Assembly: GCF_030053155.1 (NCBI RefSeq)
Contig: NZ_CP125640.1
Coordinates: forward strand, 2,480,001-2,544,000
Length of the DNA stretch: 64,000 nucleotides
Direction of reading: 5' to 3'
From: Rhizobium sp. BT03
GTDB taxonomy: Bacteria; Pseudomonadota; Alphaproteobacteria; Rhizobiales; Rhizobiaceae
In this document: piece after piece, positions 12,697 to 64,000 of the stretch
How positions within the stretch are numbered: position 1 is the stretch's first letter
Layout: every line of letters begins with the position of its first letter
Notes under the pieces: generated by a model
Seen by the model: only the letters and a program-made list of their open reading frames with translations
Databases searched by the model: none
Told to the model about the DNA's origin: nothing
Program-made: the position numbers and the translations under genes

Positions 12697-12759
12697 GAAA
12701 CCGTCCAAAGGGCATTCCTCCCATGTTTTCCAACGACTAGCAGTTTTTTCGCATGTTGG

Positions 12760-12892: not shown

Positions 12893-12939
12893 ACCTTCTC
12901 TCCACGAAGTGCCCGACGATCCGGGCGACAAGCAGGGCG

Positions 12940-47161: not shown

Positions 47162-47830
47162 TTATCGGGCGCAGGCTGGCCAGGCGTCGGCCGATGAGAT
47201 CCGCCAGGGTTCGGTTGACTGCTCAACTGCGTCGATGGCGATGGCCATACGCATGAGCTCTGCTAGATTGCGCGCTCCCATCTTGACCATCACATTGGCG
47301 CGATGGACCTCCACCGTACGCGAGCTGATGCCGAGATGATAAGCGATCATCTTGTTCTGCAAACCATCGAGAACGCCGATCAGAACCTGATGTTCGCGGT
47401 CTGTGAGCTGACGAACGCGGGCTGCGACGCTTTCAGAGTCCGCAATTGCGCGGCCTGGCCGCCTTTGCCCCATGGCCAGATTGATCGCCGCGATCAATGC
47501 TTCCTCCCTGAGGGGCTTTTCCAGAAAGTCCGACGCCCCCGCCTTCATCGCCTGAACGGCTGCGGCGACATCGCCCTGGCCGGTGATGACGATCGCCGGA
47601 ACGTCCACGCTGAACCGTCGCAGACGGTGGAGCAATTCGATGCCGTCGACGTCAGGCATGCGCAGATCCGTCACCAGGCAGCTTCGGCCCGAAAGGGGCA
47701 GAAGATCCAGAAATGCTTTTGCGCAGCTATGCGCTCGCACGGCAAAACCGGCCGACACCAGCAGAAATGTCAAAGATCGTCTCAACGCCTCCTCGTCATC
47801 GACGAGATGGATGGTCAGGTCGTTCGTCAT
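47162..47830 (-). CDS. FixJ/NarL-family response regulator
   Basis: 222 residues. The receiver domain has the acid pair DDE near residue 11, phospho-acceptor D55 in VTDLRMPDVDG, T83 in VITGQGD and K105 in FLEKPL. The LuxR-type HTH (LTDREHQVLIGVLDGLQNKM, YHLGISSRTVEVHRANVMVK) is FixJ-like. It overlaps the kinase gene stop by 35 bases, so the pair is co-transcribed. Oxygen sensing by this pair is not supported, since the kinase lacks the haem ligand. Confidence 0.92.
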   Translation of the reverse strand: MTNDLTIHLVDDEEALRRSLTFLLVSAGFAVRAHSCAKAFLDLLPLSGRSCLVTDLRMPDVDGIELLHRLRRFSVDVPAIVITGQGDVAAAVQAMKAGASDFLEKPLREEALIAAINLAMGQRRPGRAIADSESVAARVRQLTDREHQVLIGVLDGLQNKMIAYHLGISSRTVEVHRANVMVKMGARNLAELMRMAIAIDAVEQSTEPWRISSADAWPACAR

Positions 47831-49037
47831 TGATTTCGGTCTCCACCAGCGGAAGCGAGAACGAGAAGACTGAGCCGCTCTCTGTTCTCTTACGCGCGCT
47901 TATGCGGCCTCCATGCGCCTCGACGATGCGCTTGGACAATGCCAAGCCCATGCCAAGGCCGTGCGGCTTGCCGGTCACGAAGGGACGAAACAACGACTCT
48001 TCGATCTCGGCAGCAATCCCGCAGCCGTTGTCGGACACGTCGACAACGAGATACGAGGAATTGTCTACCATTGTGCGGATGGCAATCGACGGCTGCTCGA
48101 CGCACTCGGTCGCCTCCAAGGCGTTGCGAACGAGGTTCGTCAGCACCTGCACGATCTGAACGCGATTTCCAAGAACGGTGTCCCGCACTGCTTCCAGCCT
48201 AAAGTCGGTATGAAGGTCTTTTCGCCGCGACCCGATGAGCGCGAGCCGTGTCGCCCGATGGATCAACTCGTGCATCGCCTCCGGCTTCCTCTCGGAAGCG
48301 CCGCGTTCTGCGAATTCTCTGACGTTCTGGACGATACTTCCTGCCCATAGCGCGTGCTGCGTAATTTCCGACAGCGCTTCGCGAAGCTCTTCGCCGCGCT
48401 GCGGGCGGTTGCTCGTGACAAGACGCCCGCACCCTTCGGAATAGGCTGCGATAGACGACAGCGGCTGAGAAAGTTCATGGGCAAGAATGGATGCCATTTC
48501 TCCCAGTTCCGTCATTCTTGCAAGGCGGGCAATCTCGTGCTGCAACTCCTGAACTTGCTGCAAAGTCTCGCGCTCGGCACGAAAGTCCTCGAAAACCGCC
48601 GCAGTGAAAACGCCGTCTGTGTCATGCTTGCGGATAATGGTGAGGACCGTCGGAAATTGAACGCCGCTCTTGGTGATCGCCAGGCCGGCACGCACCGCCC
48701 CTTGGTCTGCCCAGCGTCCATTCAATCGGACATTCGGTGTCGGGCGCCAGACAAAGCCGATCTTTCGGCCAATCAACTCACGCTCCTCATAACCGAACAA
48801 GGCGACGGCGGCCTTGTTGCAGGCTGAGATTCTATGGCGGTCGCTGATAAAAAACACCGCGTCCGGCATGTGTTCGTGGAGTTGCCGGATCCACTCCATC
48901 CGCGGCCCGCCGTTTCCTTCGCGCAAGGCGCGCGCAGGCGCGCGCTGCGGTGTTTGCGATGTCATAGGGGGGACTTGTCCTGCCACGGCGGGGCCGGCTT
49001 CGGCGACGGCATCCGGCGCCTCCATCTTGATGGACAT
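47796..49037 (-). CDS. PAS-domain sensor histidine kinase, FixL-like without haem histidine
   Basis: 413 residues from ATG 49037, preceded by GGAGGAGACC. There is no membrane helix, so it is cytosolic. The PAS domain spans about 48-155 (EHMPDAVFFISDRHRISACN, FGYEERELIG). The region that carries the proximal haem His in FixL reads PNVRLNGRWADQ and has none. HisKA has H187 in ASILAHELSQPLSSIAAYS. HATPase shows NLVRNALEA, DNGCGI and GLGMGLALS. Ligand unknown. It pairs with the overlapping FixJ-like regulator. Confidence 0.9.
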   Translation of the reverse strand: MSIKMEAPDAVAEAGPAVAGQVPPMTSQTPQRAPARALREGNGGPRMEWIRQLHEHMPDAVFFISDRHRISACNKAAVALFGYEERELIGRKIGFVWRPTPNVRLNGRWADQGAVRAGLAITKSGVQFPTVLTIIRKHDTDGVFTAAVFEDFRAERETLQQVQELQHEIARLARMTELGEMASILAHELSQPLSSIAAYSEGCGRLVTSNRPQRGEELREALSEITQHALWAGSIVQNVREFAERGASERKPEAMHELIHRATRLALIGSRRKDLHTDFRLEAVRDTVLGNRVQIVQVLTNLVRNALEATECVEQPSIAIRTMVDNSSYLVVDVSDNGCGIAAEIEESLFRPFVTGKPHGLGMGLALSKRIVEAHGGRISARKRTESGSVFSFSLPLVETEINDERPDHPSRR

Positions 49038-49210: not shown

Positions 49211-49224
49211 TTGATCCGGCTCAA
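49211..49224 (+). promoter_or_regulatory. FNR/FixK-type box upstream of the 49.4 kb genes
   Basis: TTGATCCGGCTCAA, one mismatch from TTGAT-N4-ATCAA. If used at -41.5 the transcript would begin near 49259, ahead of the 49436 gene. Ten flanking bases on each side match the box at 54649. Confidence 0.6.
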
Positions 49225-49759: not shown

Positions 49760-49773
49760 TTGTCTGCGATCAA
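49760..49773 (+). promoter_or_regulatory. FNR/FixK-type box upstream of arcA
   Basis: TTGTCTGCGATCAA matches TTGAT-N4-ATCAA at nine of ten positions. Centre about 90 bases before arcA; a start near 49808 would leave a 48-base leader. Anaerobic control of arc genes in R. etli is established knowledge. Confidence 0.65.
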
Positions 49774-49855
49774 TGACACGACCGAGCAGGCCGAAATAAT
49801 CTGGTTATTGAAGAAGGGGCGGCGCGGCCGCGATCCGAATGCGAAGGAGGACCAC

Positions 49856-51085
49856 ATGCGTGGTTTCGGGGTTCACTCGGAGGTCGGGAAATTAAGAACC
49901 GTCATGGTTTGCAAACCGTCTCTGGCGCATCAGCGCCTGACGCCTGCGAATTGCCATGACCTGCTTTTCGACGATGTCCTATGGGTTCACGAGGCCCAGA
50001 AGGATCATTTTGATTTTGTGCTGAAGATGCAGGAACGGGGCGTCGAAGTTCTCGAGCTTCACGACCTGCTCGCTCAGACCCTTGCCAACAAGGAGGCGCG
50101 TGATTTCGTCTTGGACCGGCGCATTACCCCGAATGTGCTCGGCTCGCAAATCGCCGAGGCGATGCGGCCGTGGCTCGACGAAATGCCCCCGGCGCAGCTC
50201 GCCGCATTCATGATCGGCGGCATCGCAATCTCCGACCTGCCCGAAGTCAAGGCGAAGTCGCTGATGCTCAGCGCCTTGCCGGAGACGGATTTCGTCATCC
50301 CGCCGATCCCGAACACCTTGTTTCAGCGCGATCCCTCCTGCTGGATCTACGGTGGCGTGACCTGCAACCCGATGTTCTGGCCGGCAAGACGCGCCGAGAC
50401 GCTGATTCAGCGGGCGATCTACAAGTTTCATCCAATTTTTCTTGGCGGCGATTTCCAGATCTGGTGGGGCGATTCGGACCAGCCGTTCGCCAATGCCTCG
50501 ATGGAGGGCGGCGACGTCATGCCGATCGGCAACGGCACCGTGCTGATCGGCATGGGCGAGCGTACGACCTACCAGGCCGTCGGCCAAGTGGCACAGGCCC
50601 TGTTCAGGAGCAACGCCGCAAAGCGGGTGATCGGCTGCCTGATGCCGAAGAGCCGTGCGGCCATGCACCTCGACACCGTTTTCAGCTTTTGCGATCGCGA
50701 TGTCGTCACGCTGTTTGCCGAGGTCGTCGACCAGGTCCGCTGCTACAGCATGCACCCGAAGGACGACGACGGCACATTCGAGATTCATCCCGAAAACCGG
50801 CCGATGCTCGATGTCGTCGCCGAGGCGCTCGACCTGCCGCAATTGCGCACCGTCGAGACCGGCGGCAATTCCTACCAGGCCGAGCGCGAACAATGGGACG
50901 ACGGCAACAACGTCGTGGCACTCGAGCCCGGCGTCGTCGTCGCCTACGACCGCAACACCTACACGAATACGCTTCTGCGCAAGGCGGGGATCGAGGTCAT
51001 CACCATTCGCGGCTCCGAACTCGGCCGCGGCCGCGGCGGCGGGCATTGCATGACATGCCCCATCTGGCGCGACCCTGCTTACTGA
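49856..51085 (+). CDS. arcA: Arginine deiminase
   Basis: Hydrolyses arginine to citrulline and ammonia, first step of the ADI pathway. 409 residues from ATG 49856 after GAAGGAGG; in-frame codons from 49760 lie in the promoter. [20 protein letters not shown] is the family start, and [15 protein letters not shown] and [23 protein letters not shown] carry guanidinium-binding residues. [10 protein letters not shown] gives the catalytic His, and the nucleophile is C398 in [10 protein letters not shown]. First of arcABC. Confidence 0.97.
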
Positions 51086-51123
51086 CGTTTCACACCCACG
51101 AACCAGACCGACGGAGCAAGATC

Positions 51124-52128
51124 ATGAGCTTCAATCTGCGCAATCGCTCGCTACTGACCGTGCAGGATTATACCCCGCGGGAATTCCGCTATCTCCTCGA
51201 TCTCGCCCGCGATCTGAAGCGGGCGAAATATGCCCGCACAGAGCAGGAGCACCTGAAAGGCAAGGAAATCTGCCTGATCTTCGAAAAGACCTCGACGAGG
51301 ACGAGATGCGCCTTCGAAGTCGCCTGCTCGGACCAGGGCGCCAATGTGACCTATCTCGATCCCTCCGGCTCGCAGATCGGGCACAAGGAGTCCTTCAAGG
51401 ACACGGCGCGGGTGCTGGGGCGCATGTATGATGCGATCGAATATCGCGGCTCCGCGCAGAAAGGCGTGGAGACGCTGGCAAAATATGCCGGGGTGCCCGT
51501 CTATAACGGCCTGACGGACGAATATCATCCGACGCAGATGATCGCCGACGTCATGACCATGCGCGAACATAGCGACAAACCCATCGCAGAGATCAAATAT
51601 GCCTATGTCGGCGACACGCGCTCCAACATGGGGCATTCGCTGCTGATCGTCGGCTGCCTGCTCGGCATGGATGTGCGTATCTGCGGGCCGAGATCGCTTT
51701 GGCCCGCCGAGGAATATATGGTGATCGCAAGGGATCTTCAGCGAAACTCCGGCGCACGCCTGCTGGTCACCGATGATCCCAGGGAGGCCGTCAAGGATGT
51801 CGATTTCATTCACACCGACGTCTGGGTCTCGATGGGTGAACCGAAAGATGTCTGGCGAGAACGCATCAAGCTGCTCACCCCCTATCAGGTCAATCGGGAC
51901 CTGATGAAGGCGACCGGCAAGCCGCAGACCAAGTTCATGCATTGCCTGCCGGCGTTCCACGACACCGAAACGACGCTCGGCAAGCAGATCGCCGAAGATT
52001 ACGGCATGGAGAACGGCCTCGAAGTGACCAATGAGGTTTTCGAATCCGAGGCCAATGTCGCCTTCGAGCAGGCGGAGAACCGCCTGCACACGATCAAGGC
52101 CCTGCTTGTCGCGACGCTGGGAGATTGA
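51124..52128 (+). CDS. arcB: Catabolic ornithine carbamoyltransferase
   Basis: Phosphorolyses citrulline to ornithine and carbamoyl phosphate. 334 residues from ATG 51124; the frame is open to 50170 inside arcA. Carbamoyl-phosphate site S57-TRTR, then [20 protein letters not shown] and the ornithine site [10 protein letters not shown]. The catabolic role is inferred from its place between arcA and arcC and from the ArcB-type SQIGHKES loop. Confidence 0.96.
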
Positions 52129-52129
52129 C

Positions 52130-53068
52130 ATGCGTGTGGTCATTGCGCTTGGCGGCAATGCGCTTCTCCGGCGCGGGGAAGCCATGACGGCCGATACCCA
52201 GAGACGGAATGCGCGCGTCGCAGCTCAGGCGATCGCGCCCTTGGCAGCCGAACATGAGATCGTCGTCACGCACGGAAACGGGCCGCAAGTGGGCCTGCTT
52301 GCGCTGCAAGGGGCGGCCTACAAGCCCGAGGAAGCCTATCCGCTCGACGTTCTCGGCGCCGAGACCGAGGGCATGATCGGCTACATGCTGGAACAGGAGC
52401 TCGGCAATCTCCTGCCGTTCGAGCAGCCTTTGGCCACGCTGCTGACCATGGTCGAAGTCGATGCCGCCGATCCGGGCTTCCAGAACCCCACAAAATTCGT
52501 CGGCCCCGTCTATGAGCAGGCCGAGGCGGAGCGGATCCGCACGGAAAAAGGCTGGGTCTTCAAGCAGGACGGCGAACAATGGCGGCGCGTCGTCGCCTCG
52601 CCAGCGCCCAAACGCATCTTCGAGATCCGTCCGGTCCGCTGGCTCCTGGAACAGCGCACCATCGTCATCTGCGCCGGCGGCGGCGGCATTCCGACGATGT
52701 ACGAAAAGGGCGCCGACCGGAAGCTGATCGGCGTCGAAGCCGTGATCGACAAGGATCTGTGCTCGGAGCTTCTGGCGCGCGAGCTTTACGCCGATCTGCT
52801 GATCATGGCGACGGATGCCGAGGCCGTCTGCACCGACTGGGGCAAGCCGTCGCAGAAGGCGATCCATCGGGCCCGTCCCGATGATTTCAAGCAGTTTTCC
52901 TTCCCGGCCGGATCGATGGGGCCAAAAGTCGATGCCGCCTGCCATTTTGCCCGCGCTGGCGGCAGGACCGCAGCGATCGGAGCGCTCGCCGACATTGCGG
53001 GAATGGTGCGCGGCGAGCGCGGAACCATCATCAGCGAAAGCTTTGCCGGGCTGAGCTGGCACGCCTGA
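52130..53068 (+). CDS. arcC: Carbamate kinase
   Basis: Transfers phosphate from carbamoyl phosphate to ADP, the ATP-yielding step of the ADI pathway. 312 residues from ATG 52130, one base after the arcB stop. [30 protein letters not shown] and [14 protein letters not shown] are diagnostic; [17 protein letters not shown] is the C-terminal mark. No terminator is obvious after it; the permease gene is convergent. Confidence 0.97.
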
Positions 53069-53097
53069 ACCCCGCCCGGCCCCTTCCAACCGGCTTA

Positions 53098-54456
53098 TTA
53101 TCCCGACACGGCCGGGTGCCGTGTCGCACCCCCTGCCGTTTCCTGGCGTTCGATCGCCGGCGCGGCGTTGCGCCTTTGCCAGACATAGACGGGGATCCCG
53201 AGCATCAGCAGCACCAGCCCATAGAGCACCGGCTCCGCGCCCGAGCCATAGAGCGTGAAGATCGCAAAAACGAAGGCGATCAGTTCGATGGCGCTTACGC
53301 GCGGCATTCGCCCGAGCGTCACGCCCGCGACAAGGGTGCCGGCCAGCGAACAGAAGGCGTAGGGAACGACGGCGGCCATCGTGCTCAACCCGACCATCAG
53401 CCGATAGGCTGCGGCGAATCCTTCGGCCCCGACAGCCTGAGCAAGAACCAGCAGGGTCGCGAACAAGGCCGAGACGATCATGCCCAGAGCCGGTACGCCG
53501 CGGGAAGAGAGCCGCGCGAAAAGCGGAGGAAACAGCCCATCCCGGGCAGCGGCCATCGGCACTTGTCCCATCAGCAGGGTCCAGCCGTTCAAAGCGCCGA
53601 TCGAAGAGACCAGGACGGCGAGCGAGATCGCCAGTTCGCCGCCGCGTCCCCACATGATGCCCGCGGCCTGCGAAAACGGTGCGACCGAGTGGACCAGCTG
53701 TTCGCGCGGCACGAGGCCCATCACCACGATGGTGCCGAGCACGTAAAGTGCCGCAGCGATCGAGATTCCAAGGACCGTCGAGCGCGGGATGGTCCGTTCT
53801 GCGTTCTCGACATCGCCTGCGGGCACGGTTGCCGATTCCAGCCCGAGATAGGCAAACATCGTCAGCGGCGCCAGCGTTGCTATCGACTGCAGCAGCGGCT
53901 GGCCGCTCGGATTGAATTCGGAGAAATGGGACGTGTCGATGAAGAAGAGGCCGATGATGGCGACGGCGCCGAAGGGAAGCAGCTTGGCATAGGTGGTGAC
54001 CTGCGCAAAGAGGCCCGCCGCGTGAACGCCGCGAAGATTGACGAGGACGATCGCCCAGATCACGCCGAGCGTCAGCACGGTCGCGGCGAAGCGATTGCCG
54101 AGGGCGGGGAAGAGATCGACCATCACGCCGGCAAAGGCAATGGCGATGACCGGAAGCGATGTCCAGATGGAAATCCAGTAGCCCCAGGCGATCAGGAAGC
54201 CGGCGAAGTCGCCATAGGCGAGCCTCGTATAGGCGTAAGGACCGCCGACGGCAGGCACCAGGCGCGCCAGCCGCGCAAAGGTGAGGCCGAGGCAGATCGC
54301 GCCCGCCCCCATGAGGATCCAGACGAGGATCGCGAGATTGCCATAGGGCGCCACCGCGGCCGGGGAAAGATAAAAGCCCGACCCCACCATGTTTCCGACG
54401 ACGATGGCGGTGCAGGCGGCAAGTCCAAGACTCTTGCCATTTGGCGACGTTGTCAT
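53098..54456 (-). CDS. APC-family amino-acid permease/antiporter (AdiC/ArcD-like candidate)
   Basis: 452 residues from ATG 54456 with GGGAGGGAGCC before it; the frame opens to 54870 without sense. Twelve helices. The TM1 unwound segment NMVGSGFYLSPAAV matches the GSG substrate site of AdiC/PotE antiporters, and FAYLGLESATVPAGDVENAERT is the TM6 region. Exchange of arginine for ornithine or agmatine is inferred from context (arcABC on one side, decarboxylases on the other). Specificity not readable. Confidence 0.82.
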   Translation of the reverse strand: MTTSPNGKSLGLAACTAIVVGNMVGSGFYLSPAAVAPYGNLAILVWILMGAGAICLGLTFARLARLVPAVGGPYAYTRLAYGDFAGFLIAWGYWISIWTSLPVIAIAFAGVMVDLFPALGNRFAATVLTLGVIWAIVLVNLRGVHAAGLFAQVTTYAKLLPFGAVAIIGLFFIDTSHFSEFNPSGQPLLQSIATLAPLTMFAYLGLESATVPAGDVENAERTIPRSTVLGISIAAALYVLGTIVVMGLVPREQLVHSVAPFSQAAGIMWGRGGELAISLAVLVSSIGALNGWTLLMGQVPMAAARDGLFPPLFARLSSRGVPALGMIVSALFATLLVLAQAVGAEGFAAAYRLMVGLSTMAAVVPYAFCSLAGTLVAGVTLGRMPRVSAIELIAFVFAIFTLYGSGAEPVLYGLVLLMLGIPVYVWQRRNAAPAIERQETAGGATRHPAVSG

Positions 54457-54592
54457 GGCTCCCTCCCGAGAGACGCCTTTTCCGATGCCGATGCCGATAT
54501 CGGCTCGGACCTCCGTTCCCGGACGCAATTTTCCTCCCAAAGAATGGACGCCGCAATCCGGTTCAATGCGTAGTGGCGACCGTCTTTTCGGC

Positions 54593-54608
54593 ATTATGCA
54601 GTAGCTCG
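54593..54608. repeat. Short copy of the hicB-repeat edge
   Basis: ATTATGCAGTAGCTCG, identical to 32877-32892 at the edge of the repeat in hicB. Possibly a remnant of the same repeat family. Confidence 0.4.
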
Positions 54609-54648
54609 TGCGAGCAGGCGGGAGACGCCGCTCTTGTTCCGAACGCCA

Positions 54649-54662
54649 TTGATCGTGCTCAA
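54649..54662 (+). promoter_or_regulatory. FNR/FixK-type box upstream of an exported protein
   Basis: TTGATCGTGCTCAA, one mismatch from consensus, 68 bases before the 54730 start; a start of transcription near 54697 fits. It also lies about 200 bases upstream of the divergent permease. Confidence 0.6.
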
Positions 54663-54729
54663 TGCCCGGCGCCGGTGCATGAGCTATCCTCCACAGCCGA
54701 ACATCATTTTGTTCTGGGGAGTTAGTGCG

Positions 54730-55089
54730 ATGAAGATGGCCATGATCATTGGACTTGCCGTAATCACTGCCGCCGCCGGAATTGTCCCGGTCGACGCTCA
54801 GCAGACGAGACGCGAATATCGGAGAATGAACTGGAGCGAGAACCTGCCTGAGGCGGTGCGAACCTATCACGACAGACGATTCACGATCGTCAGCTATAGG
54901 ACGGCGGATTTTTCGGAGACCGGCTCACACCCGACACAGGGAAGCGAGGAGCACGTCAAAGCCATCAGGGATGCGATCCGCGCAAACAAATGGCTTACGG
55001 GTCAACTCAGGACCAAGAAGCTTACCGCCAACGATATCGAATGGGTCTCGCGGGCGCGCAACGGCAATATGACCTTCTACACAAAATGA
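54730..55089 (+). CDS. Small exported hypothetical protein, FNR-box controlled
   Basis: 119 residues from ATG 54730. Signal peptide MKMAMIIGLAVITAAAGIVP with cleavage near VDAQQ. The mature part is charged and soluble (NWSENLPEAVRTYHDRRFTI, AIRDAIRANKWLTGQL). No domain recognised. Its promoter has an FNR-type box. Position between the permease and the decarboxylase genes suggests a periplasmic role in the same response. Confidence 0.7.
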   Translation: MKMAMIIGLAVITAAAGIVPVDAQQTRREYRRMNWSENLPEAVRTYHDRRFTIVSYRTADFSETGSHPTQGSEEHVKAIRDAIRANKWLTGQLRTKKLTANDIEWVSRARNGNMTFYTK

Positions 55090-55262
55090 CCGGCATCTGT
55101 GCCGGGCAGATTTCAGGCTGAGCCGCACGCGGCCCCTTCCCTGGATCATCGCCGGCTGCCGCAGGACGGCTGCGACCGGCAGGAGAAAAAAGCAGACCCA
55201 TCTCGTCTCGCCTTCACGATCAGCATAAAACGATTGGAATGAAGGGTGTCGGAGGTGGGGCA

Positions 55263-56192
55263 ATGATGCTGAGCGAGCAGGGATTTCTCAGGATCTCGAT
55301 CGCTGCAACGGTCGTGGTTGCGACGCTCGGCGTGGTTTTCGGCATTCTTTCCGGATCGTTCTCCATCGCTTTCGACGGCGTTTATTCGCTGGCCGATGCG
55401 GCGATGACCGGGCTGGCGCTCTGGGTTTCCAGCCTGATCATAAAATCCACGCAGAGCGACGCGCGGTCGGGCAGGATCCGAAACCGCTTTACCATGGGCT
55501 TCTGGCATCTGGAGCCCATCGTGCTGATGCTCAATGGCTGCCTGCTGATAACCGTCGCCATCTATGCGCTGATCAGCGCGATCATCAGCATCCTGAGTGG
55601 CGGCCACGAATTGCAGTTCGGCATGGCGGTCGCCTATTCCGCGGCGACCCTGCTTGTCTGCGCCGCCATGACTTTCCTTGGCATCCGGCTGAACGCCCGG
55701 ATCAAATCCGATTTCGTCTCGCTCGACACCAAGGCCTGGATCATGTCCGGCGGCATCGCCTTCGCCCTGCTGATCGCATTTCTGATCGGCATGGCCGCGC
55801 AGGCGACGTCGGCCGCATGGATTGCCCGCTATATGGACCCCGCGGTTCTGGCGCTGGTCTGCCTGGTCATGATTCCGCTTCCGATCGGCACCGTCTGGAA
55901 GGCCCTGAGCGAAATCCTGCTGATTGCGCCCGTCGACCTCCAGCAACACGTCGACCGCGTTGCCGCAGAGACGGTTCACCGCCTCGGTTTCCTCTCGCAT
56001 CGCGCCTATGTCGCCCGGGTCGGCCGGGCAATGCAGATCGAACTCTATTTCATCGTGCCTGAAGGCCTTCCTCCGAAGACCGTGGAGGAATGGGACGCGC
56101 TCAGGGACGAGATAGGCGATGCGATCGGCGATGAAAGCGTCAATCGCTGGCTGACGATCGCCTTCACAGCCGATGCGGAATGGGCCGAATAG
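55263..56192 (+). CDS. Cation diffusion facilitator (CDF) transporter
   Basis: 309 residues from ATG 55263, eight bases after GGAGG; ATG 55239 is upstream in frame. Six helices. SIAFDGVYSLADAAMTGLAL is the TM2 metal site (D-x-x-x-S-x-x-D variant), and SLDTKAWIMSGG corresponds to TM5, where the usual His/Asp pair is partly replaced. The C-terminal domain is short and acidic. Metal (Zn, Mn, Fe or Ni) not predictable. Confidence 0.82.
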   Translation: MMLSEQGFLRISIAATVVVATLGVVFGILSGSFSIAFDGVYSLADAAMTGLALWVSSLIIKSTQSDARSGRIRNRFTMGFWHLEPIVLMLNGCLLITVAIYALISAIISILSGGHELQFGMAVAYSAATLLVCAAMTFLGIRLNARIKSDFVSLDTKAWIMSGGIAFALLIAFLIGMAAQATSAAWIARYMDPAVLALVCLVMIPLPIGTVWKALSEILLIAPVDLQQHVDRVAAETVHRLGFLSHRAYVARVGRAMQIELYFIVPEGLPPKTVEEWDALRDEIGDAIGDESVNRWLTIAFTADAEWAE

Positions 56193-56239
56193 GCCAGCGT
56201 CGGCGCTCTTCTCTTGATGTCGAAATGCTTTGCCTCACG

Positions 56240-56253
56240 TTGATTGCAATCAA
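56240..56253 (+). promoter_or_regulatory. Perfect FNR/FixK box upstream of the decarboxylase operon
   Basis: TTGATTGCAATCAA, an exact palindrome and full match to TTGAT-N4-ATCAA. Centre about 104 bases before the 56351 start; transcription near 56288 is expected. Confidence 0.85.
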
Positions 56254-56350
56254 CGACGGTGCACCACCCGTCATGTACCATCCTTCCAGCTGAGATGCGC
56301 ACCGCTGTAGAGCGGCCACGGCCTTTGACCCTCGGTTTCTGGAGGAAGGC

Positions 56351-58612
56351 ATGGAATTCCAGATGGCATTTCCGATAGCCGTTATCGACGAGGATTTTGA
56401 TGGCAAAAGCGCTGCCGGCCGCGGCATGCGCGATCTGGCCGCTGCAATCGAGAAGGAAGGCTTCCGGATTGTCTCCGGCGTTTCCTACGAGGATGCGCGG
56501 CGCCTCGTGCATATCTTCAACACCGAATCCTGCTGGCTGGTATCCGTCGATGGAGCCGAGGACAAGGTCACGCGCTGGCAGGTGCTCGGAGAGGTTCTGG
56601 CCGCAAAGCGCCAGAGGAACGACCGCCTGCCGATTTTCCTTTTCGGCGACGACACGACCGCGGAAGACGTCCCGGCTGCGGTGCTGCGCCACGCCAATGC
56701 CTTCTTCCGGCTGTTCGAGGATACGGCGGAATTCATGGCGCGCGCCATAGCGCAGGCCGCCCGCAACTATCTCGACCGGCTGCCCCCGCCGATGTTCAAG
56801 GCGCTGATGGACTACACGCTCGAGGGCGCCTATTCCTGGCACACGCCCGGCCACGGCGGCGGTACCGCCTTCCGCAAGAGCCCGGTCGGCCAGCTCTTCT
56901 ATACGTTCTTCGGCGAAAACACGCTGCGGTCCGACATCTCCGTATCGGTCGGCAGCGTCGGCTCGCTGCTCGATCATGTCGGGCCGATCGCCGAGGGCGA
57001 ACGCAACGCGGCCCGCATCTTCGGCACCGACGAGACGCTGTTCGTCGTCGGCGGCACGTCGACGGCCAACAAGATCGTCTGGCACGGCATGGTCGGACGC
57101 GGCGATCTCGTGCTCTGCGATCGCAACTGCCACAAGTCCATCCTGCACTCGCTGATCATGACGGGCGCCACCCCGATCTATCTCATCCCCTCGCGCAACG
57201 GGCTCGGCATTATCGGTCCGATCTCGAAGGATCAGTTCACGCCCGAATCGATTGCCCGCAAGATTGCCGCCAGCCCCTTTGCCGGGCAGACCAGTGGCAA
57301 AGTCCGACTGATGGTCATCACCAATTCGACCTATGACGGGCTTTGCTACAATGTCGATGCGATCAAGGCGTCGCTCGGCGACGCCGTCGAGGTGCTGCAT
57401 TTCGACGAAGCCTGGTATGCCTACGCCAACTTCCACGAATTTTATGATGGCTTCCACGGCATCTCGTCGAACCAGCCCGCACGATCGCAAAACGCCATCA
57501 CCTTTGCCACGCACTCGACGCACAAGCTGCTTGCCGCCCTTTCGCAGGCATCGATGATCCACATCCAGCATGCCGAGACCAAGCGGCTCGACATCACACG
57601 CTTCAACGAAGCCTTCATGATGCACACCTCGACCTCGCCGCAATACGGCATCATCGCCTCCTGCGATGTCGCGGCTGCCATGATGGAGCAGCCGGCCGGG
57701 CGGGCGCTGGTGCAGGAGACGATCGACGAGGCGATCAGCTTCCGCCGGGCGATGAACAGCGTGCGAAAACAGACCGAGGGCAGTTGGTGGTTCGACGTCT
57801 GGGAGCCGACGGTTGCCGAGCAGACGCCGAGCGACACCCATGCCGACTGGGTGCTGAAGCCTGGCGATGCCTGGCATGGTTTTGCCGGGCTTGCCGAAAA
57901 TCATGTCATGGTCGACCCGATCAAGGTCACCGTTCTTTCACCCGGCCTTTCGGCCAGCGGAGCGATGGACGAGAACGGGATACCGGCGGCGGTCATCACC
58001 AAATTCCTCTCCTCCCGGCGCATCGAGATCGAAAAGACCGGGCTCTATTCCTTCCTTGTTCTCTTCTCGATGGGCATTACCCGCGGCAAGTGGAGCACGC
58101 TCGTCACCGAGCTCATCAATTTCAAGGATCTTTACGACGCCAATGCGCCATTGACGCGGGCGCTGCCGGCGCTCGCCGCAGCCCATCCGGAAGCCTATGC
58201 GAGCGTGGGATTGAGAGATCTCTGCGAAAAGATCCATGCGATCTACCGCAGGGACGACGTGCCGAAGGCGCAGCGCGAGATGTACACCGTCCTGCCCGAA
58301 ATGGCGCTGCGTCCCGCCGATGCCTATGACCGGCTGGTCAAGGGCAAGATCGAGAGCATCGAGATCGACGATCTGATGAACCGCATCCTCGCCGTGATGA
58401 TCGTTCCCTATCCGCCGGGTATCCCGCTGATCATGCCGGGCGAGCGGATCACGCAATCGACGAAGTCCATCCAGGACTACCTGCTTTACGCCCGTGACTT
58501 CGACAGCAAATTCCCCGGTTTCGAAACGGATATTCACGGCCTTCGCTTCGCGCCCGGTGATGGCGGACGCCGCTACCTCGTCGATTGCATTGCAGGGGAG
58601 GAGCAGGAATGA
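56351..58612 (+). CDS. PLP-dependent basic amino-acid decarboxylase, AdiA (arginine) type
   Basis: 753 residues, fold-I Orn/Lys/Arg decarboxylase. The N-terminal wing domain (about 5-130) is followed by the PLP domain with SWHTPGHGGGTAFRKSP and LHFDEAWYAYANFHEF. The PLP lysine is K392 in FATHSTHKLLAALSQ. SLGSLLDH-like GSVGSLLDHVGPIAEGE, VPSRNGLGIIGP-like IPSRNGLGIIGPI and MGITRGKWSTLV resemble E. coli AdiA more than CadA or SpeF, so arginine to agmatine is the best guess; lysine cannot be excluded. Acts in the cytoplasm and consumes a proton. FNR box upstream. Confidence 0.85.
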   Translation: MEFQMAFPIAVIDEDFDGKSAAGRGMRDLAAAIEKEGFRIVSGVSYEDARRLVHIFNTESCWLVSVDGAEDKVTRWQVLGEVLAAKRQRNDRLPIFLFGDDTTAEDVPAAVLRHANAFFRLFEDTAEFMARAIAQAARNYLDRLPPPMFKALMDYTLEGAYSWHTPGHGGGTAFRKSPVGQLFYTFFGENTLRSDISVSVGSVGSLLDHVGPIAEGERNAARIFGTDETLFVVGGTSTANKIVWHGMVGRGDLVLCDRNCHKSILHSLIMTGATPIYLIPSRNGLGIIGPISKDQFTPESIARKIAASPFAGQTSGKVRLMVITNSTYDGLCYNVDAIKASLGDAVEVLHFDEAWYAYANFHEFYDGFHGISSNQPARSQNAITFATHSTHKLLAALSQASMIHIQHAETKRLDITRFNEAFMMHTSTSPQYGIIASCDVAAAMMEQPAGRALVQETIDEAISFRRAMNSVRKQTEGSWWFDVWEPTVAEQTPSDTHADWVLKPGDAWHGFAGLAENHVMVDPIKVTVLSPGLSASGAMDENGIPAAVITKFLSSRRIEIEKTGLYSFLVLFSMGITRGKWSTLVTELINFKDLYDANAPLTRALPALAAAHPEAYASVGLRDLCEKIHAIYRRDDVPKAQREMYTVLPEMALRPADAYDRLVKGKIESIEIDDLMNRILAVMIVPYPPGIPLIMPGERITQSTKSIQDYLLYARDFDSKFPGFETDIHGLRFAPGDGGRRYLVDCIAGEEQE

Positions 58613-60972
58613 TCCCGCGTGATGTGAAGTCTCCGACGGTCGCCATACCCTTCCACAAGATGCTGAAGATCGTGGCAATCATCGACCGCGACAACTCTCA
58701 GGCTCAGGCACTGGTGTCACAGATCGTCGACCAGGGCTTCGAGGTGGAACTGCGCGGCGATTATTCTGCCGATGTCTCCGAGGATGCCGATGTCGGCGCC
58801 TATATCGGCTCGGTCGAAGGCGGCCAGCTGTCGGCGGCTCGCAGCTTCCTTCGCTCGGTCAGGGATATCGGCTTCCGTACACCGATCTGGGCAATGGCCG
58901 ATACGCTGACCATCAAGGATATGGACGTCGTCGAAATGGCCGGCGAGGTCGACGGCTTCGTTTACCTCGGCCAGCAGACGCCGACCTTCTACGCCAAGCA
59001 GATCGTCTCCAGCGCGGTCAATTACGGTAAGTCACTGCTGCCGCCGTTCTTCGGCGGCATGATGGCCTATGACGGCGAGGCGAATATCGCCTTCGACTGC
59101 CCCGGCCATCAGGGCGGCCAGTTCTATCGGAAGTCGCCGGCCGGCCAGCTGTTCTTCAAATATTTCGGCGAGAGCATTTTCCGCAACGACCTCTGCAATG
59201 CGGATGTCGATCTCGGCGACCTCCTGATCCACGAAGGTCCAGCCGTCGAAGCCCAGAAACAGGCGGCGCGCATCTTCGGCGCGGACCGCACCTATTTCAT
59301 TCTCAACGGAACAAGCACCTCCAACAAGGTGGTTGCCAATGCGGTGCTGCACAGCGGCGATCTCGTGCTCTTCGACCGCAACAATCATAAATCCCTGCAT
59401 CAGGGCGCTCTTGTTCAGGCAGGCGCCATCCCGATCTATCTACCGACGGCCCGCAATTCTTTCGGCATGATCGGCGCGGTGGACTGGGCGGCGTGGGATG
59501 AAAGCTGGCTGCGGCGAAGGATCGAGGAACATCCGCTCGTCGCCGACAAGAGCCGTGCGAAGGCAGACCGGCCCTTCCGTCTCGCCTGCATCCAGCTCGC
59601 GACCTATGACGGCACGATCTACAATGTCAGCCAGGTTATGGAGAAGATCGGCCATCTCTGCGACTACGTCCTCTGGGACGAGGCCTGGATCGGCTACAAT
59701 GCCTTCCACCCGCTCTTCGAAGGCCGCAGCCCGATGCGTCTCAAGGACCTGCGGGCCGACATGCCGGGCCTGTTTTCAACCCAGTCGGTGCACAAGCAGG
59801 GTGCCGGCTTTTCCCAGGCGTCGCAGATCCACAAGCGCGACGAACATATCAGCGGTCAGCGCCGGTTCGTCGAACACAAGCGCTTCAATGAATCGCTGCT
59901 GATGCATGTTTCGACCTCTCCGTTCTATCCGCTGTTCGCCTCGCTCGATGTCAATGCTAAGGTGCATGAGGGCAAGGCTGGCGAGATGCTCTGGGACCGC
60001 TGCATCGAGCTCGGGATCGAGGTGCGCAAGAAGTTGCGCGGTTTCGTGGATCATTACGAGACCAAAGCCGCAAGCCCGGAGGAACAATGGTTTTTCGATC
60101 CCTTCGTGCCGGACAAGGTCACCGTTTCGGGCTCCAAACATACCAACGACCTCGAAGGCATGCGGTGGGAGGAAATTCCGACGGATGTGCTCAAACGCGA
60201 GCAGCAATGCTGGCAGTTCGATCCGCAGGCAAAGTGGCACGGCTATGCCGGGTATGCACCAGGTTACACCATGGTCGACCCCAACAAACTGGCCATACTG
60301 ACACCCGGCATCGACCGCAAAACCGGCGGCTATCGCGAGTTCGGCATCCCGGCGACTGTCGTCGCCAACTATCTGCGCGAGCAGCGGGTGGTGGCGGAAA
60401 AATGCGACTTGAACAGTCTCCTGTTCCTGCTGACCCCGGCCGAGGACGAGAGCAAGCTGAATACGCTCGTCGCCAAGCTGGTCAAATTCAAAAATCTCTG
60501 GGACCGCGATGCGCCGCTGCAGGAAGTGTTGCCAACGGTGTATGCGGCCAATCGCGAGCGCTATGCCGGTTATACGGTCCGTCAGGTCTGCCATGAGATG
60601 CACTCCTTCTATCGCGATGCCGGCGTAAAGGAACTGCAGCGCCTCTGCTTCCGCTCCGAGAGCTTCCCGGAACCGGCCATTGCTCCCAAGCAGGCCTACG
60701 AAGCGCTGGTCGCCAACAATGTCGACTATGTGCCGCTGACACAGGCTGCCGGCCGCATTTCGGCAACGCTGGCGCTGATCTATCCGCCGGGCATCGGCGT
60801 GATCGTGCCGGGAGAGCGCTGGGACGAGAGAGCACGCCCGATGCGGGATTATTTCCTGGCCTTCGAAGAGTCGTTCAACCGGTTTCCGGGCTTCAACTAT
60901 GAGGTCCAGGGCGTGTTCCAGGAAAAGGTCGAGGGGCGGATCAAATTCCACACATATGTCGTGCGCGAGTAG
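58609..60972 (+). CDS. speF: Inducible-type ornithine decarboxylase
   Basis: 787 residues from ATG 58609, overlapping the previous stop by ATGA. Wing domain, then NIAFDCPGHQGGQFYRKSPA, NDLCNADVDLGDLLIHEGPA and DYVLWDEAWIGYN. PLP lysine K396 is in TQSVHKQGAGFSQASQIHK, the SpeC/SpeF pattern rather than THSTHK of the upstream gene. Converts ornithine (the arc pathway product) to putrescine. Followed by a PotE-like antiporter, the standard speF-potE pair. Confidence 0.93.
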   Translation: MIPRDVKSPTVAIPFHKMLKIVAIIDRDNSQAQALVSQIVDQGFEVELRGDYSADVSEDADVGAYIGSVEGGQLSAARSFLRSVRDIGFRTPIWAMADTLTIKDMDVVEMAGEVDGFVYLGQQTPTFYAKQIVSSAVNYGKSLLPPFFGGMMAYDGEANIAFDCPGHQGGQFYRKSPAGQLFFKYFGESIFRNDLCNADVDLGDLLIHEGPAVEAQKQAARIFGADRTYFILNGTSTSNKVVANAVLHSGDLVLFDRNNHKSLHQGALVQAGAIPIYLPTARNSFGMIGAVDWAAWDESWLRRRIEEHPLVADKSRAKADRPFRLACIQLATYDGTIYNVSQVMEKIGHLCDYVLWDEAWIGYNAFHPLFEGRSPMRLKDLRADMPGLFSTQSVHKQGAGFSQASQIHKRDEHISGQRRFVEHKRFNESLLMHVSTSPFYPLFASLDVNAKVHEGKAGEMLWDRCIELGIEVRKKLRGFVDHYETKAASPEEQWFFDPFVPDKVTVSGSKHTNDLEGMRWEEIPTDVLKREQQCWQFDPQAKWHGYAGYAPGYTMVDPNKLAILTPGIDRKTGGYREFGIPATVVANYLREQRVVAEKCDLNSLLFLLTPAEDESKLNTLVAKLVKFKNLWDRDAPLQEVLPTVYAANRERYAGYTVRQVCHEMHSFYRDAGVKELQRLCFRSESFPEPAIAPKQAYEALVANNVDYVPLTQAAGRISATLALIYPPGIGVIVPGERWDERARPMRDYFLAFEESFNRFPGFNYEVQGVFQEKVEGRIKFHTYVVRE

Positions 60973-60991
60973 ACGCAGGGAGGGTTTCGTC

Positions 60992-62350
60992 ATGACCGAC
61001 AACACGATGCATCTCGCGGCCGAGGCCACGGCCAAGAAAAAGATGAACCTGGTGCAGCTCACCTTCATCGTCGCCGTCAACATGATGGGGTCTGGTATCA
61101 TCATGCTGCCCGCCAATATGGCTCAGGTCGGTGCGATCTCGCTGCTCTCCTGGCTCGTGACGGCCATCGGTTCGATGGCGATCGCTTATGGCTTCGCCCA
61201 GGCCGGGCTGTTCAATCAGCGTCCTGGCGGCATGTCCGCCTATGCGGAGGATGCCTACGGCAAAGACGGCTACTTCATGGTGTTCTTCCTGTATTTCCTT
61301 TCGCTTGCCGTCGGCAATGTCGCGATCGGCATCTCCGCGGTCGGCTATCTCGCGGGATTTTTTCCGGTGCTGACATCCACGCCCATCATGACCTGCCTGG
61401 CGCTGATCATCCTCCTGTGGCTGACCACGGCCGCCAATTTCGGCGGCCCGCGCATCACCGGACGCATCGGTTCGGTCACGGTCTGGGGCGTCATCCTTCC
61501 TGTCGGCCTGCTGTCGATCATCGGCTGGCTCTGGTTCAGCTCAAGCACTTTCGGCGATGCCTGGAATCCGAAAGGACTGTCGCTCGCGCAGGGCATGGGA
61601 TCGAGCATTTCGCTGACGCTCTGGGCCTTCCTCGGCATGGAGTCGGCGGCACAGAATTCGGATGCCGTCGAAAACCCCAAGCGTGACGTGCCGCTCGCCT
61701 GCATGTTCGGCACGCTCGGGGCAGCCGTCATCTACATCCTGTCGACGACGGTCATTCAGGGCATCGTGCCGAATGCCGACCTCGCCACCTCCACGGGGCC
61801 TTTCGCCTTGGCCTATGCCACGATGTTCAATCCGACCATCGGTTCGATCGTTATGGCGCTGGCGGTGCTGGCCTGCCTCGGCTCGTTGCTGGGCTGGCAG
61901 TTCACGATCGCCCAGACGGCGCGGACCGCGGCGGAAGAGCGAATGTTCCCATCCATATTTTCCCGGGTGAATGAGATGGGCGCGCCGGTCAGCGGCATGA
62001 TCATCCTCGGCATCGTGCAGACGGGGCTTGCCCTGATGACCATATCGCCGACCTTGAGCGAGCAGTTTTCTGCTCTCGTCAATCTCGCTGTGGTGACGAA
62101 CGTGCTGCCCTATATCATCGCGCTCTCTTCGCTGTTCGTCATGATGAAGGCTGCGCGCGTGCCCCAGGCGAAATACCGGCTGAACGCCACCATTGCCATG
62201 GTCGGCATGGCCTACAGCGTTTTCGCCATCTACGCCTCCGGCAAGGATGCGGTGCTCGGCGGCATGATCGTCACAGGGATCGGTTTCATCATTTACGGGC
62301 TCATCGCCCCGCGTTTCGCCAACGGCGTGAACCGGGCGCCAGCCGAGTAA
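60992..62350 (+). CDS. potE: Putrescine/ornithine antiporter
   Basis: 452 residues from ATG 60992 after GGGAGGG. Twelve-helix APC protein very close to E. coli PotE. VQLTFIVAVNMMGSGIIMLP holds the TM1 substrate site, with SWLVTAIGSMAIAYGFAQ, AANFGGPRITGRIGSVTVWG, TLWAFLGMESAAQNSDAVEN and SLLGWQFTIAQT also matching. Exchanges external ornithine for putrescine, exporting a proton equivalent. Nineteen bases after the decarboxylase stop. Confidence 0.94.
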   Translation: MTDNTMHLAAEATAKKKMNLVQLTFIVAVNMMGSGIIMLPANMAQVGAISLLSWLVTAIGSMAIAYGFAQAGLFNQRPGGMSAYAEDAYGKDGYFMVFFLYFLSLAVGNVAIGISAVGYLAGFFPVLTSTPIMTCLALIILLWLTTAANFGGPRITGRIGSVTVWGVILPVGLLSIIGWLWFSSSTFGDAWNPKGLSLAQGMGSSISLTLWAFLGMESAAQNSDAVENPKRDVPLACMFGTLGAAVIYILSTTVIQGIVPNADLATSTGPFALAYATMFNPTIGSIVMALAVLACLGSLLGWQFTIAQTARTAAEERMFPSIFSRVNEMGAPVSGMIILGIVQTGLALMTISPTLSEQFSALVNLAVVTNVLPYIIALSSLFVMMKAARVPQAKYRLNATIAMVGMAYSVFAIYASGKDAVLGGMIVTGIGFIIYGLIAPRFANGVNRAPAE

Positions 62351-62367
62351 CACAGGGAGGACAAGAT

Positions 62368-63291
62368 ATGTCAGAGAGAAATGGTCGCCGGGCGGCAATC
62401 GCCGCCTCTGTCCTCGCCGCAGCGGCCGTCTGCGCCGCCGCGTTGCCCGCGCAGGCACAGACGCTCGACCGCGTCAGCACGAGCAGCGCGCTGAAATTCG
62501 GCTACGATCCGGAAGCAAGGCCGTTTTCGTTCGATGCCCAAGGCAAGCCCGACGGCTATGCAGTGGCGCTCTGCAACAGGATCGCCGATAGCCTGAGAGC
62601 GCAGTTGAACCTGCCGAAGCTCGATGTGGAATGGGTTCCCCTTTCGGGTGATGCCAAGCTGCGTGCCATACAGGACGGCATGGCGGACCTTGTCTGCGCC
62701 GCGGAGCCGGTGACGCTCGGCCGCCGGCAGCAGGTCTCGTTCTCCCTGCCGATCTTCCCGAGCGGTACCGGGGCGCTGCTCAGCGCGAGCGCCCCCTTGG
62801 CACTGCGCGAGGTTCTGCAACATGGCGAACCATCGAGCCGGCCCGTCTGGCGCGGCGCACCGGCCCGCACGATCCTCGAACACAAGACATTCTCGTCGAT
62901 AGCAGGCACGACAAGCGAAGGCTGGCTGTCCGACAGGATCAAGACCTTCCAGCTCGCGGCGACGGCAACGCCCGTCGCCAGCTACCAGCAGGGGATCGAG
63001 CATGTCCTGGACGGCAGTTCGGCGGTGCTTTTCGGCGATATGCCGCTGCTGATGGACGCTGCCGCCCGCAGCGACAGCTCCGGCAATCTCATCGTCCTTG
63101 AGCGCCATTTCACCTATGAGCCGCTTGGCCTTGCGCTGGCGCGCGGGGACGAGGATTTTCGCCTGGCGGTCGATCGCGCCCTGAGCCAGGCCTATGCAGC
63201 GCAGGACTTCCGAGCCTTCTTTACAACCTGGTTTGGCCCGCCTGACGATGCAGTCGTGACCTTCTTCCGGCAGACGGCGCTTCCGGAGTGA
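62368..63291 (+). CDS. Periplasmic amino-acid-type solute-binding protein
   Basis: 307 residues with strong GGAGGACAAG before ATG 62368. Signal peptide (MSERNGRRAAIAASVLAAAA to AQAQT). SBP_bac_3 fold: ALKFGYDPEARPFSFDAQGK, PDGYAVALCNRIADSL, GMADLVCAAEPVTLGRRQQV and the C-terminal PLGLALARGDEDFRLAVDRAL. No ABC permease or ATPase gene follows, so it is an orphan binding protein, possibly a sensor or donor for another transporter. Arginine or ornithine as ligand is inferred from context. Confidence 0.86.
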   Translation: MSERNGRRAAIAASVLAAAAVCAAALPAQAQTLDRVSTSSALKFGYDPEARPFSFDAQGKPDGYAVALCNRIADSLRAQLNLPKLDVEWVPLSGDAKLRAIQDGMADLVCAAEPVTLGRRQQVSFSLPIFPSGTGALLSASAPLALREVLQHGEPSSRPVWRGAPARTILEHKTFSSIAGTTSEGWLSDRIKTFQLAATATPVASYQQGIEHVLDGSSAVLFGDMPLLMDAAARSDSSGNLIVLERHFTYEPLGLALARGDEDFRLAVDRALSQAYAAQDFRAFFTTWFGPPDDAVVTFFRQTALPE

Positions 63292-63339: not shown

Positions 63340-64000
63340 TTGAGCCTCCTTTTCAAAGAGATTCGCGGCAGTCCGATATTATGGCTGCTGGCCGCCGTGC
63401 CGGTAGTGTTCTTAGCTGCGGCACTCTTTCCCGAAGCGCACACGGCGCTTTTCGTCCTGTCGGTCTTGGCCATTGTGCCGTTGGCCGGTCTGCTCAGCCA
63501 TGCGACCGAATCCGTTGCCGCCAAGACGGGTGATGCCGCAGGCGGGCTACTGAATGCGACCCTCGGCAACCTGACCGAACTGGTGATCGCGCTAGCTGCC
63601 CTGCAGGCCGGCGAATATACGCTGGTCAAGGCATCCATCGCCGGCGCGATCGTCACCAATACGCTGTTCATGCTCGGCGCTTCCTTTCTGCTTGGCGGGC
63701 TCAAATATCACATTCAGGAATTCAACCGCGCCAGCGCACGTATTCAAGCCGGCCTGCTTTTCCTGGCCACGGTCGCCCTGCTGATGCCTTCGGCACTTGG
63801 CGGATTGGACACGGCATCGGTCGCACCCGTCACTCAAACCCTCAGCCTCAGCCTGGCCGTTCTGCTTGTCATCGGATATGGGCTGGGACTGTTGTTCACG
63901 CTTAGAACACATCGGGAATTTTTCTCTTCACCGGATCATGCCGAGGCCGGCGAGGCGCCGTGGCCGATCGGCCTCGCCCTCGGCACGCTTGCCGGCGTCA
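63340..64000 (+). CDS. Ca2+/H+ exchanger of the CAX/ChaA family (5' part, continues past window)
   Basis: TTG 63340 start, with GGGGGAG upstream. The 220 codons visible cover the first helices. LLSHATESVAAKTGDAAGGL precedes the ion-site motif NATLGNLTELVIALAALQ and VKASIAGAIVTNTLFMLGAS. These are the alpha-1 repeat of cation/proton antiporters. A role in proton or calcium balance fits the neighbouring acid-response type genes; 48 bases from the binding-protein gene. Confidence 0.88.
   Translation, partial: MSLLFKEIRGSPILWLLAAVPVVFLAAALFPEAHTALFVLSVLAIVPLAGLLSHATESVAAKTGDAAGGLLNATLGNLTELVIALAALQAGEYTLVKASIAGAIVTNTLFMLGASFLLGGLKYHIQEFNRASARIQAGLLFLATVALLMPSALGGLDTASVAPVTQTLSLSLAVLLVIGYGLGLLFTLRTHREFFSSPDHAEAGEAPWPIGLALGTLAGV

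Follow-up and report, generated by a model that had tools for sequence, protein, structure and literature searches.

Described rhizobial systems and the BT03 locus

In Rhizobium etli, arcABC is said to have been found beside fixLJ by D'Hooghe and others in 1997. We analysed a 64,000-nucleotide stretch of the Rhizobium sp. BT03 genome (contig NZ_CP125640.1, positions 2,480,001 to 2,544,000; the window), which carries arcABC together with an APC-family antiporter gene (apc), a CDF transporter gene (cdf), two decarboxylase genes (dec1 and dec2), potE and a solute-binding protein gene (sbp). This module is likely to be a low-oxygen amino-acid catabolic cassette, perhaps one that serves under acid conditions too, as judged from its sequence. 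The rhizobial gene set and its shared low-oxygen control are already known, and one branch of the module has been mislabelled.

In Sinorhizobium meliloti, FixJ activates arcA1BC, SMa0680 and SMa0682 (PMC13327599, citing earlier work), and arcABC and SMa0684, the latter named adiC, were required in symbiosis by TnSeq (PMC7268258). A review of pSymA describes odc1 with a putrescine/ornithine antiporter and, nearby, a putative Adc and a possible agmatine/arginine antiporter; symbiosis is efficient only with both odc1 and odc2, whereas loss of odc1 left growth at pH 5.5 as in the wild type (PMC10385936). SMa0680 and SMa0682 are raised in a tolC mutant (PMC2912261). In Rhizobium leguminosarum, RLV_1136 (ornithine carbamoyltransferase), RLV_1140 (lysine decarboxylase) and RLV_1141 (ornithine decarboxylase) were 2.2-2.6-fold higher in pea than in lentil bacteroids (PMC7950203). 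By tag order and product names, RLV_1136-1141 are probably the module described here; in R. leguminosarum bv. viciae they sit on the plasmid pRlvA (PMC7950203). A plasmid of R. leguminosarum has the gene order of the window.

The S. meliloti pSymA genes (SMa0680, SMa0682, SMa0684 and arcABC, SMa0693-0697; L006) are the same as those of the window at 62-88% identity, with genes matched to tags by order and the NC_003037 record used without annotation. FixJ activation and the symbiotic need in S. meliloti match a low-oxygen module (PMC13327599, PMC7268258), whereas gene order and strands differ, as does the replicon: a symbiotic plasmid there and a 4.5-Mb contig with dnaX here. The dec1 and APC orthologues of S. 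meliloti stand in print as the putative Adc and AdiC (PMC10385936, PMC7268258). A preliminary description of the BT03 sequence had called the union of these genes unusual, yet the set is shared by S. meliloti and by R. leguminosarum (PMC10385936, PMC13327599, PMC7950203). The co-expression of arc and decarboxylase units that it had offered as a check is borne out in print for these close relatives (PMC13327599, PMC7950203). In the window dnaX lies at 12427-14820 and the module appears to be chromosomal; it is plasmid-borne in R. leguminosarum, R. lentis and Sinorhizobium records.

Outside the rhizobia, L. rossiae D87 converts arginine to putrescine through arginine deiminase (ADI) plus ornithine decarboxylase (ODC) (PMC5838238), a pairing seen likewise in W. 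halotolerans W22 (PMC8928434). The sequenced L. rossiae ODC cluster differs from the window in that odc-potE lies by itself between two terminators, unlinked to arc (PMC5838238). The saerimneri 30a and P. wasatchensis (odc2-odc1-potE) systems likewise unite lysine and ornithine decarboxylases with PotE, but with a single shared transporter and with no annotated ADI gene in P. wasatchensis (PMC8928434). Pseudomonas LdcA shares a residue signature with dec1, and permeases near ldcA are sister to the APC clade; the Pseudomonas-type loci (L024-L092) differ in that speF, potE or arc was found in 0/69 of the available stretches. A cross-class operon, an LdcA reading of dec1 and the box footprint described below were not found in the open-licence literature searched.

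The genes named in the preliminary description (arcABC, the APC antiporter, two decarboxylases including the SpeF type, PotE and an orphan binding protein) were all present in the order it gave, and every gene of the module had an intact reading frame, open in the window:

49856..51085, + strand: arcA, arginine deiminase (TIGR01078, 501.2 bits, above cut-off; catalytic motifs)
51124..52128, + strand: arcB, catabolic ornithine carbamoyltransferase (PRK01713, 555.4 bits, above cut-off)
52130..53068, + strand: arcC, carbamate kinase (TIGR00746, 386 bits, above cut-off)
53098..54456, - strand: APC antiporter, predicted start; forms a separate clade whose sister group is the Pseudomonas permeases near ldcA
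55239..56192, + strand: CDF cation transporter (PF01545, 88.3 bits), a constant member in Rhizobium
56351..58612, + strand: dec1, LdcA-clade fold-type I decarboxylase (best Protein Data Bank (PDB) match 6q6i; tree; residues)
58609..60972, + strand: dec2, SpeF-type ornithine decarboxylase (PRK13578, 909.6 bits, cut-off 794; best PDB match 1ord)
60992..62350, + strand: potE, putrescine-ornithine antiporter (PRK10655, 704.7 bits, and TIGR04299, 581.2 bits, both above cut-off)
62368..63291, + strand: sbp, orphan family-3 solute-binding protein (PF00497; nearest model TIGR01096, 80.7 bits, cut-off 256)
63340..64000, + strand: CAX-type exchanger, a variable member; runs past the window end, its frame stopping about 434 bases on

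The preliminary description had started arcA at 49760, which is base 1 of the box TTGTCTGCGATCAA, absorbed by a TTG start; the true start is the ATG at 49856. NCBIfam cut-offs were passed by ArcA, ArcB, ArcC and PotE, and by dec2 for PRK13578, whereas dec2 scored below the SpeF 'exception' model TIGR04301 (898 vs cut-off 1310). Catalytic motifs were found in ArcA (F.RD, EGGD, HLDT, GxHCM), ArcB (STRT, HCxP) and ArcC, and a pyridoxal phosphate (PLP)-lysine site in dec1 and in dec2. dec1 and dec2 overlap in ATGA (stop 58612, start 58609), potE and sbp each begin at most 20 bp after the preceding gene, and sbp followed potE in every cassette locus checked. The SpeF-type enzyme and PotE, which was 56% identical to E. 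coli PotE, are adjacent as in a SpeF-PotE system. The earlier view of ADI and ODC/PotE in one block was upheld, and the ornithine made by ArcB would be the substrate of the SpeF-type enzyme. Counterparts of the CAX-type gene in relatives are named cax. No tRNA was found in the 64-kb window.

Identity of dec1 and the APC antiporter

Against solved structures, dec1 scored 991 bits with 6q6i, P. aeruginosa LdcA, whose molecule name in the entry is 'biodegradative arginine decarboxylase'; lysine decarboxylases of the E. coli type and arginine decarboxylases of the AdiA type both gave 584-601 bits (584-597 for the AdiA-type chains alone). In an 86-row tree, the 20 rows made up of dec1 and its relatives from other cassettes formed a clade with support 100, which shared a superclade (support 99) with Pseudomonas LdcA and stood with neither AdiA nor CadA. 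AdiA fell elsewhere, grouped with two Mesorhizobium and four Rhizobiaceae enzymes. Identity of dec1 was 38% with AdiA and 55-59% with its Pseudomonas-type relatives, whose residue signature it shares. Profile scores did not bring it into AdiA (683.7 bits, cut-off 1167), nor did it reach the curated lysine decarboxylase cut-off (best model PRK15399 LdcC, 718.2 bits vs 968); it passed no NCBIfam cut-off, lysine models included, and the search returned no LdcA-specific model.

In a published tree, P. aeruginosa LdcA groups with two enzymes characterised as ornithine decarboxylases, from B. pertussis and from R. solanacearum (PMC8503589), so that the clade alone gives no substrate; therefore, residue columns were compared between lysine and ornithine enzymes. 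The lysine set held 10 Pseudomonas-type LdcA rows, CadA and LdcC, and the ornithine set 12 SpeF/dec2-type rows and 21 rows of a group B (L099-L101, L104-L120 and L123), which we guess to be mostly Burkholderiales and whose closest matches among named plasmids were from Paracoccus and Haematobacter (68-70%), followed by rhizobia. Two columns separated the sets strictly and seven loosely, and the 20 cassette sequences carried the lysine-type majority residue at 2/2 and 7/7 of them. In 16 columns that divide lysine decarboxylases (LDC) from arginine decarboxylases (ADC), the cassette agreed with LDC at 12, with ADC at 2 and with neither at 2. The most telling residues of dec1 were T165, S197, S199 and A396, as in P. 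aeruginosa LdcA and CadA; the same columns read C, C, A and G in five SpeF/dec2 rows, in at least 90% of 18 group B rows and in the solved ornithine decarboxylase 1ord. With all 12 ODC rows, column 165 was strict and columns 197, 199 and 396 were loose only.

From these sequence comparisons dec1 is probably a lysine decarboxylase, and lysine to cadaverine is the likely third branch. The 'AdiA-like' label of the preliminary description was rejected on the LdcA superclade, the AdiA identity and the LDC-type columns, and its arginine decarboxylase branch to agmatine is left with no clear gene, as dec1 is in the LdcA clade and the APC protein is no orthologue of AdiC. Modelling of dec1 with AlphaFold (alignment of 7 similar sequences) gave a mean pLDDT of 38, and the model was set aside.

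The APC antiporter shared 33% identity with AdiC, 28% with PotE and 30% with CadB, and 41-43% with permeases near ldcA in 6/69 Pseudomonas-type loci, four of them directly downstream. A 26-row tree joined it to these permeases (100/100), apart from AdiC. It scored 281 bits against the AdiC model (cut-off 574) and, though its gene adjoins arcC, 175.9 bits against the arginine-ornithine antiporter model (cut-off 591). In a comparison at 16 AdiC positions, it keeps N22, S26, Y93, E208, W293 and S357, whereas N101 is replaced by L, W202 by F, and both C97 and M104 by I. The AdiC label was rejected on the separate clade, the identity and the altered pocket. A relative at 55% identity adjoins an AdiA-clade enzyme in L096, and a fixed lysine role of the antiporter is therefore disfavoured.

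Low-oxygen boxes and conservation in relatives

The rhizobial anaerobox is TTGAT-N4-ATCAA (PMC7888657), and TTGAY-N4-RTCAA was scored here at a conserved distance before the gene. The sites and the regulatory and small genes of the window are as follows:

43435..44094, - strand: FixK-like Crp/Fnr regulator (Pfam HTH_Crp_2 and cNMP_binding; NCBIfam FixK, 139.6 bits, cut-off 300)
47162..47830, - strand: FixJ-like response regulator (NCBIfam PRK09390 FixJ, 249.6 bits, slightly below the cut-off of 255)
47796..49037, - strand: FixL-like sensor kinase, predicted start (PAS, HisKA, HATPase; NCBIfam FixL, 245.5 bits, cut-off 850)
49211..49224, unstranded: anaerobox-like site TTGATCCGGCTCAA, upstream of the FixL-like gene
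49760..49773, unstranded: anaerobox of arcABC TTGTCTGCGATCAA, about 89 bp ahead of the arcA ATG
54649..54662, unstranded: anaerobox-like site TTGATCGTGCTCAA, about 75 bp ahead of the 119-aa open reading frame (ORF)
54730..55089, + strand: 119-aa protein, N terminus signal-like by eye, matched by neither Pfam nor NCBIfam
56240..56253, unstranded: perfect anaerobox TTGATTGCAATCAA, about 104 bp ahead of dec1

The bare number of boxes was rejected as evidence, since the 64-kb window held 4 with at most one mismatch vs 4.09 expected by chance; the claim thus rests on position and conservation. The box before dec1 was perfect in 16/16 Rhizobium/Sinorhizobium loci (window included), with varying spacers, and in 28/28 loci of a second, partly overlapping set, in which the box before arcA had one mismatch in 26/28 and the control genes arcB, arcC, cdf, dec2, potE and sbp had a box in 0/28 each. 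In the first set, the arcA box stood at 80-106 bp in the 12 Rhizobium-type loci. The second set includes L152 (G947, with dec1 in two pieces) and L153, and its L126-L151 partly repeat earlier genomes (L127/L013, L129/L009, L130/L014, L133/L015, L140/L007, L148/L016), so that the 16-locus and 28-locus counts are not independent. The predicted sites keep a conserved distance, as in a FixK/FnrN (anaerobox) regulon. Of the shared FNR-type boxes proposed earlier, the presence before both units at a conserved position stands, and their number carries no weight.

A box-like site with at most one mismatch preceded the 119-aa ORF in 26/28 loci and the FixL-like gene in 15/15 loci with a FixL match; where this ORF lies between FixL and arcA, the two are one site read in opposite directions. 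Sites were scored for apc in 7/28 loci and read as the reverse complement of the box of the 119-aa ORF, with which they are probably identical. A perfect site preceded cax in 2/16. The 119-aa protein is secreted-looking, has its own conserved site TTGAY-N4-CTCAA and travels with the module, its position shifting from between apc and cdf in some loci to upstream of arcA in others.

The FixK-like regulator and the FixLJ-like genes are less than 7 kb away from arcA and recur in relatives, the FixK-like regulator being a recurring neighbour of the module; no N-terminal Cys cluster was seen in it by eye. The FixL-like kinase (47796-49037) seems, also by eye, to be without the heme-ligating His region of FixL.

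Among 100 sampled genomes of the genus, dec1 was present in 29 (one partial, G994), cassette-type arcA (at least 88% identity) complete in 30, with a fragment in a further genome (G968), and cassette-type dec2 (at least 89%) in 30 (one partial, G1000). All 29 dec1 genomes also carried cassette-type arcA and dec2. As the genes are linked, the p value of a Fisher test shows only that they are present or absent together. The order of arcABC, the opposed apc, cdf, dec1, dec2, potE and sbp was the same in 26/26 further Rhizobium loci, a count that was drawn around full-length dec1 and excludes the window, G029 and G994; it is thus not confined to this strain, a point on which the preliminary description had asked for a check. 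G029 (L103) has the same order, and dec1 of G994 (L153) is partial and near the contig start. dec2 is shortened to 0.65 of its length in L137, with the order kept, and dec1 is split into two pieces in G947. CDF was present in 26/26 Rhizobium loci and CAX was matched in 16/26 stretches, some of the others being too short to reach it. The blocks have been rearranged in S. meliloti and S. medicae yet are still linked there.

Further paralogues of ADI (55-58%) and of SpeF (50-55%) lie outside the cassette, some of them in cassette-free genomes, and ADI and SpeF units can therefore live apart. An apparent natural deletion was observed in L154 (G968:C6), where most of arcA through sbp is gone and an arcA fragment adjoining cax is retained together with FixLJ-like and FixK-like genes.

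Proposed working, rival readings and wider distribution

At low oxygen, a FixK/FnrN-type activator would turn on arcABC and the dec1-dec2-potE-sbp operon jointly. ArcA would convert arginine to citrulline, and the split by ArcB to ornithine and carbamoyl phosphate would give ATP, 2 NH3 and CO2. The SpeF-type dec2 would then turn ornithine into putrescine, consuming a proton, and PotE would export putrescine in exchange for ornithine. dec1 would most likely convert lysine to cadaverine, with the APC antiporter exchanging either arginine for ornithine or lysine for cadaverine. The net yield would be respiration-free ATP plus two proton-consuming steps. The bacteroid setting is one of low oxygen and acid pH, in which the cassette would draw both ATP and proton consumption from one set of amino acids, and cassette parts already count as S. 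meliloti symbiosis genes. In the methods of the decarboxylase assay in print, arginine, ornithine and citrulline are named and lysine is not (PMC7268258); a probable lysine branch in place of the 'Adc/AdiC' pair therefore alters how the arginine-based nitrogen-exchange model is to be tested.

Occurrence outside Rhizobium and Sinorhizobium rests on four loci among the matches listed. A Tabrizicola (L019), a Burkholderiales metagenome-assembled genome (MAG; L022) and a Gammaproteobacteria MAG (L018) carry co-directional dec1-dec2-potE-sbp-arcA-arcB-arcC, in which no more than 95 bp separate a gene from the start of the next match, an arrangement that looks like one operon; the APC gene comes next in L018. 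The fourth, a Mesorhizobium of the window's family (L017), carries dec1-dec2-potE-sbp and apc-cdf, and arc was not found in its available stretch. No dec1 above 60% identity was found outside the genus in a phylum sample (398 genomes) or a class sample (385), and proteins about 80% identical to dec1 are on record from MAGs, among them one of Bryobacteraceae and one of Betaproteobacteria. The rhizobial set is one local form of a cassette that is more widespread and probably mobile. We give little credence to a fuller version, in which a single-operon cassette moves horizontally among alpha-, beta- and gammaproteobacteria, turns arginine into putrescine plus ATP and lysine into cadaverine, and has sbp feed the exchangers directly, by antiport with no ABC permease.

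Several observations weigh against a low-oxygen cassette with a lysine branch. The 86-row decarboxylase tree was built by a quick method and drew long-branch warnings, and branching within the superclade was weakly supported (82). The cassette sided with Pseudomonas over group B in 51/78 decided columns as a baseline, on which agreement at 7/7 lysine-type columns is, as calculated by hand, an approximately 5% event. Two S. meliloti enzymes, OdcA and OdcB, acted as decarboxylases on ornithine or 5-amino-oxopentanoate (PMC7268258); should either be orthologous to dec1, lysine would be disfavoured as the dec1 substrate. The arcA box is more distant and of other sequence in L006, L011 and L012 and is missing in L010, and the APC gene was not found in the available stretches of L010, L019 and L022. 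At the four loci outside Rhizobium/Sinorhizobium, the 300 bp upstream of dec1, and of arcA where covered, contained no box with at most one mismatch, so that the low-oxygen control is lineage-specific. Oxygen sensing by the FixL-like kinase, with its seeming loss of the heme-ligating His, is doubtful.

For dec1 itself, ornithine is an unlikely substrate, as is the consequent draining of ArcB's ornithine by both decarboxylases. Such a second ODC would accord with the published place of LdcA beside the B. pertussis and R. solanacearum enzymes (PMC8503589) and with group B as nearest neighbour of the cassette clade (support 82, not firm), whereas group B and true ODCs carry C165, C197, A199 and G396 against T, S, S and A in the cassette, and 1ord also has C, C, A, G; the ornithine decarboxylases of B. 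pertussis and R. solanacearum are presumed to belong to group B. An AdiA-type arginine decarboxylase working with an AdiC-type arginine/agmatine antiporter to turn arginine into agmatine is less probable still. Relatives of dec1 are arginine decarboxylases in some sources and lysine decarboxylases in others, and S. meliloti has its 'putative Adc' with a possible agmatine/arginine antiporter (PMC10385936) and SMa0684 as adiC (PMC7268258); but the AdiA clade lies elsewhere in the tree, dec1 reaches 683.7 bits of the 1167 required (missing the lysine cut-offs too), 12/16 columns are LDC-type, and the antiporter departs from AdiC at C97, N101, M104 and W202. We thus retain lysine decarboxylation as the preferred reading of dec1.

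The arc and decarboxylase units might also be loose neighbours in a region rich in low-oxygen genes, co-inherited with no joint function. The nitrate-reductase nap genes nearby in S. meliloti and S. medicae, the differing Rhizobium and Sinorhizobium arrangements and the separate ADI and SpeF paralogues in other Rhizobium genomes agree with this, but the operon-like order in three distant lineages among the matches listed and the linkage that persists through rearrangement in S. meliloti and S. medicae make it improbable, and the catabolic cassette is preferred.

Additional features were observed at the loci outside the genus. In Mesorhizobium sp. LHD-90 (L017:3507-8143), two extra extended-form decarboxylases of the AdiA side are divergent from dec1-dec2, giving four extended-form decarboxylases in about 10 kb. 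An integrase-core (rve) ORF at L019:8871-9578 stops about 0.4 kb before the Tabrizicola cassette, which would fit mobility. Outer-membrane proteins (Alginate_exp, DcaP, Gcw_chp) adjoin or sit in the cassette at L018:2800-4125, L022:8567-9979 and L017:15878-16774, where they are a possible entry route for basic amino acids.

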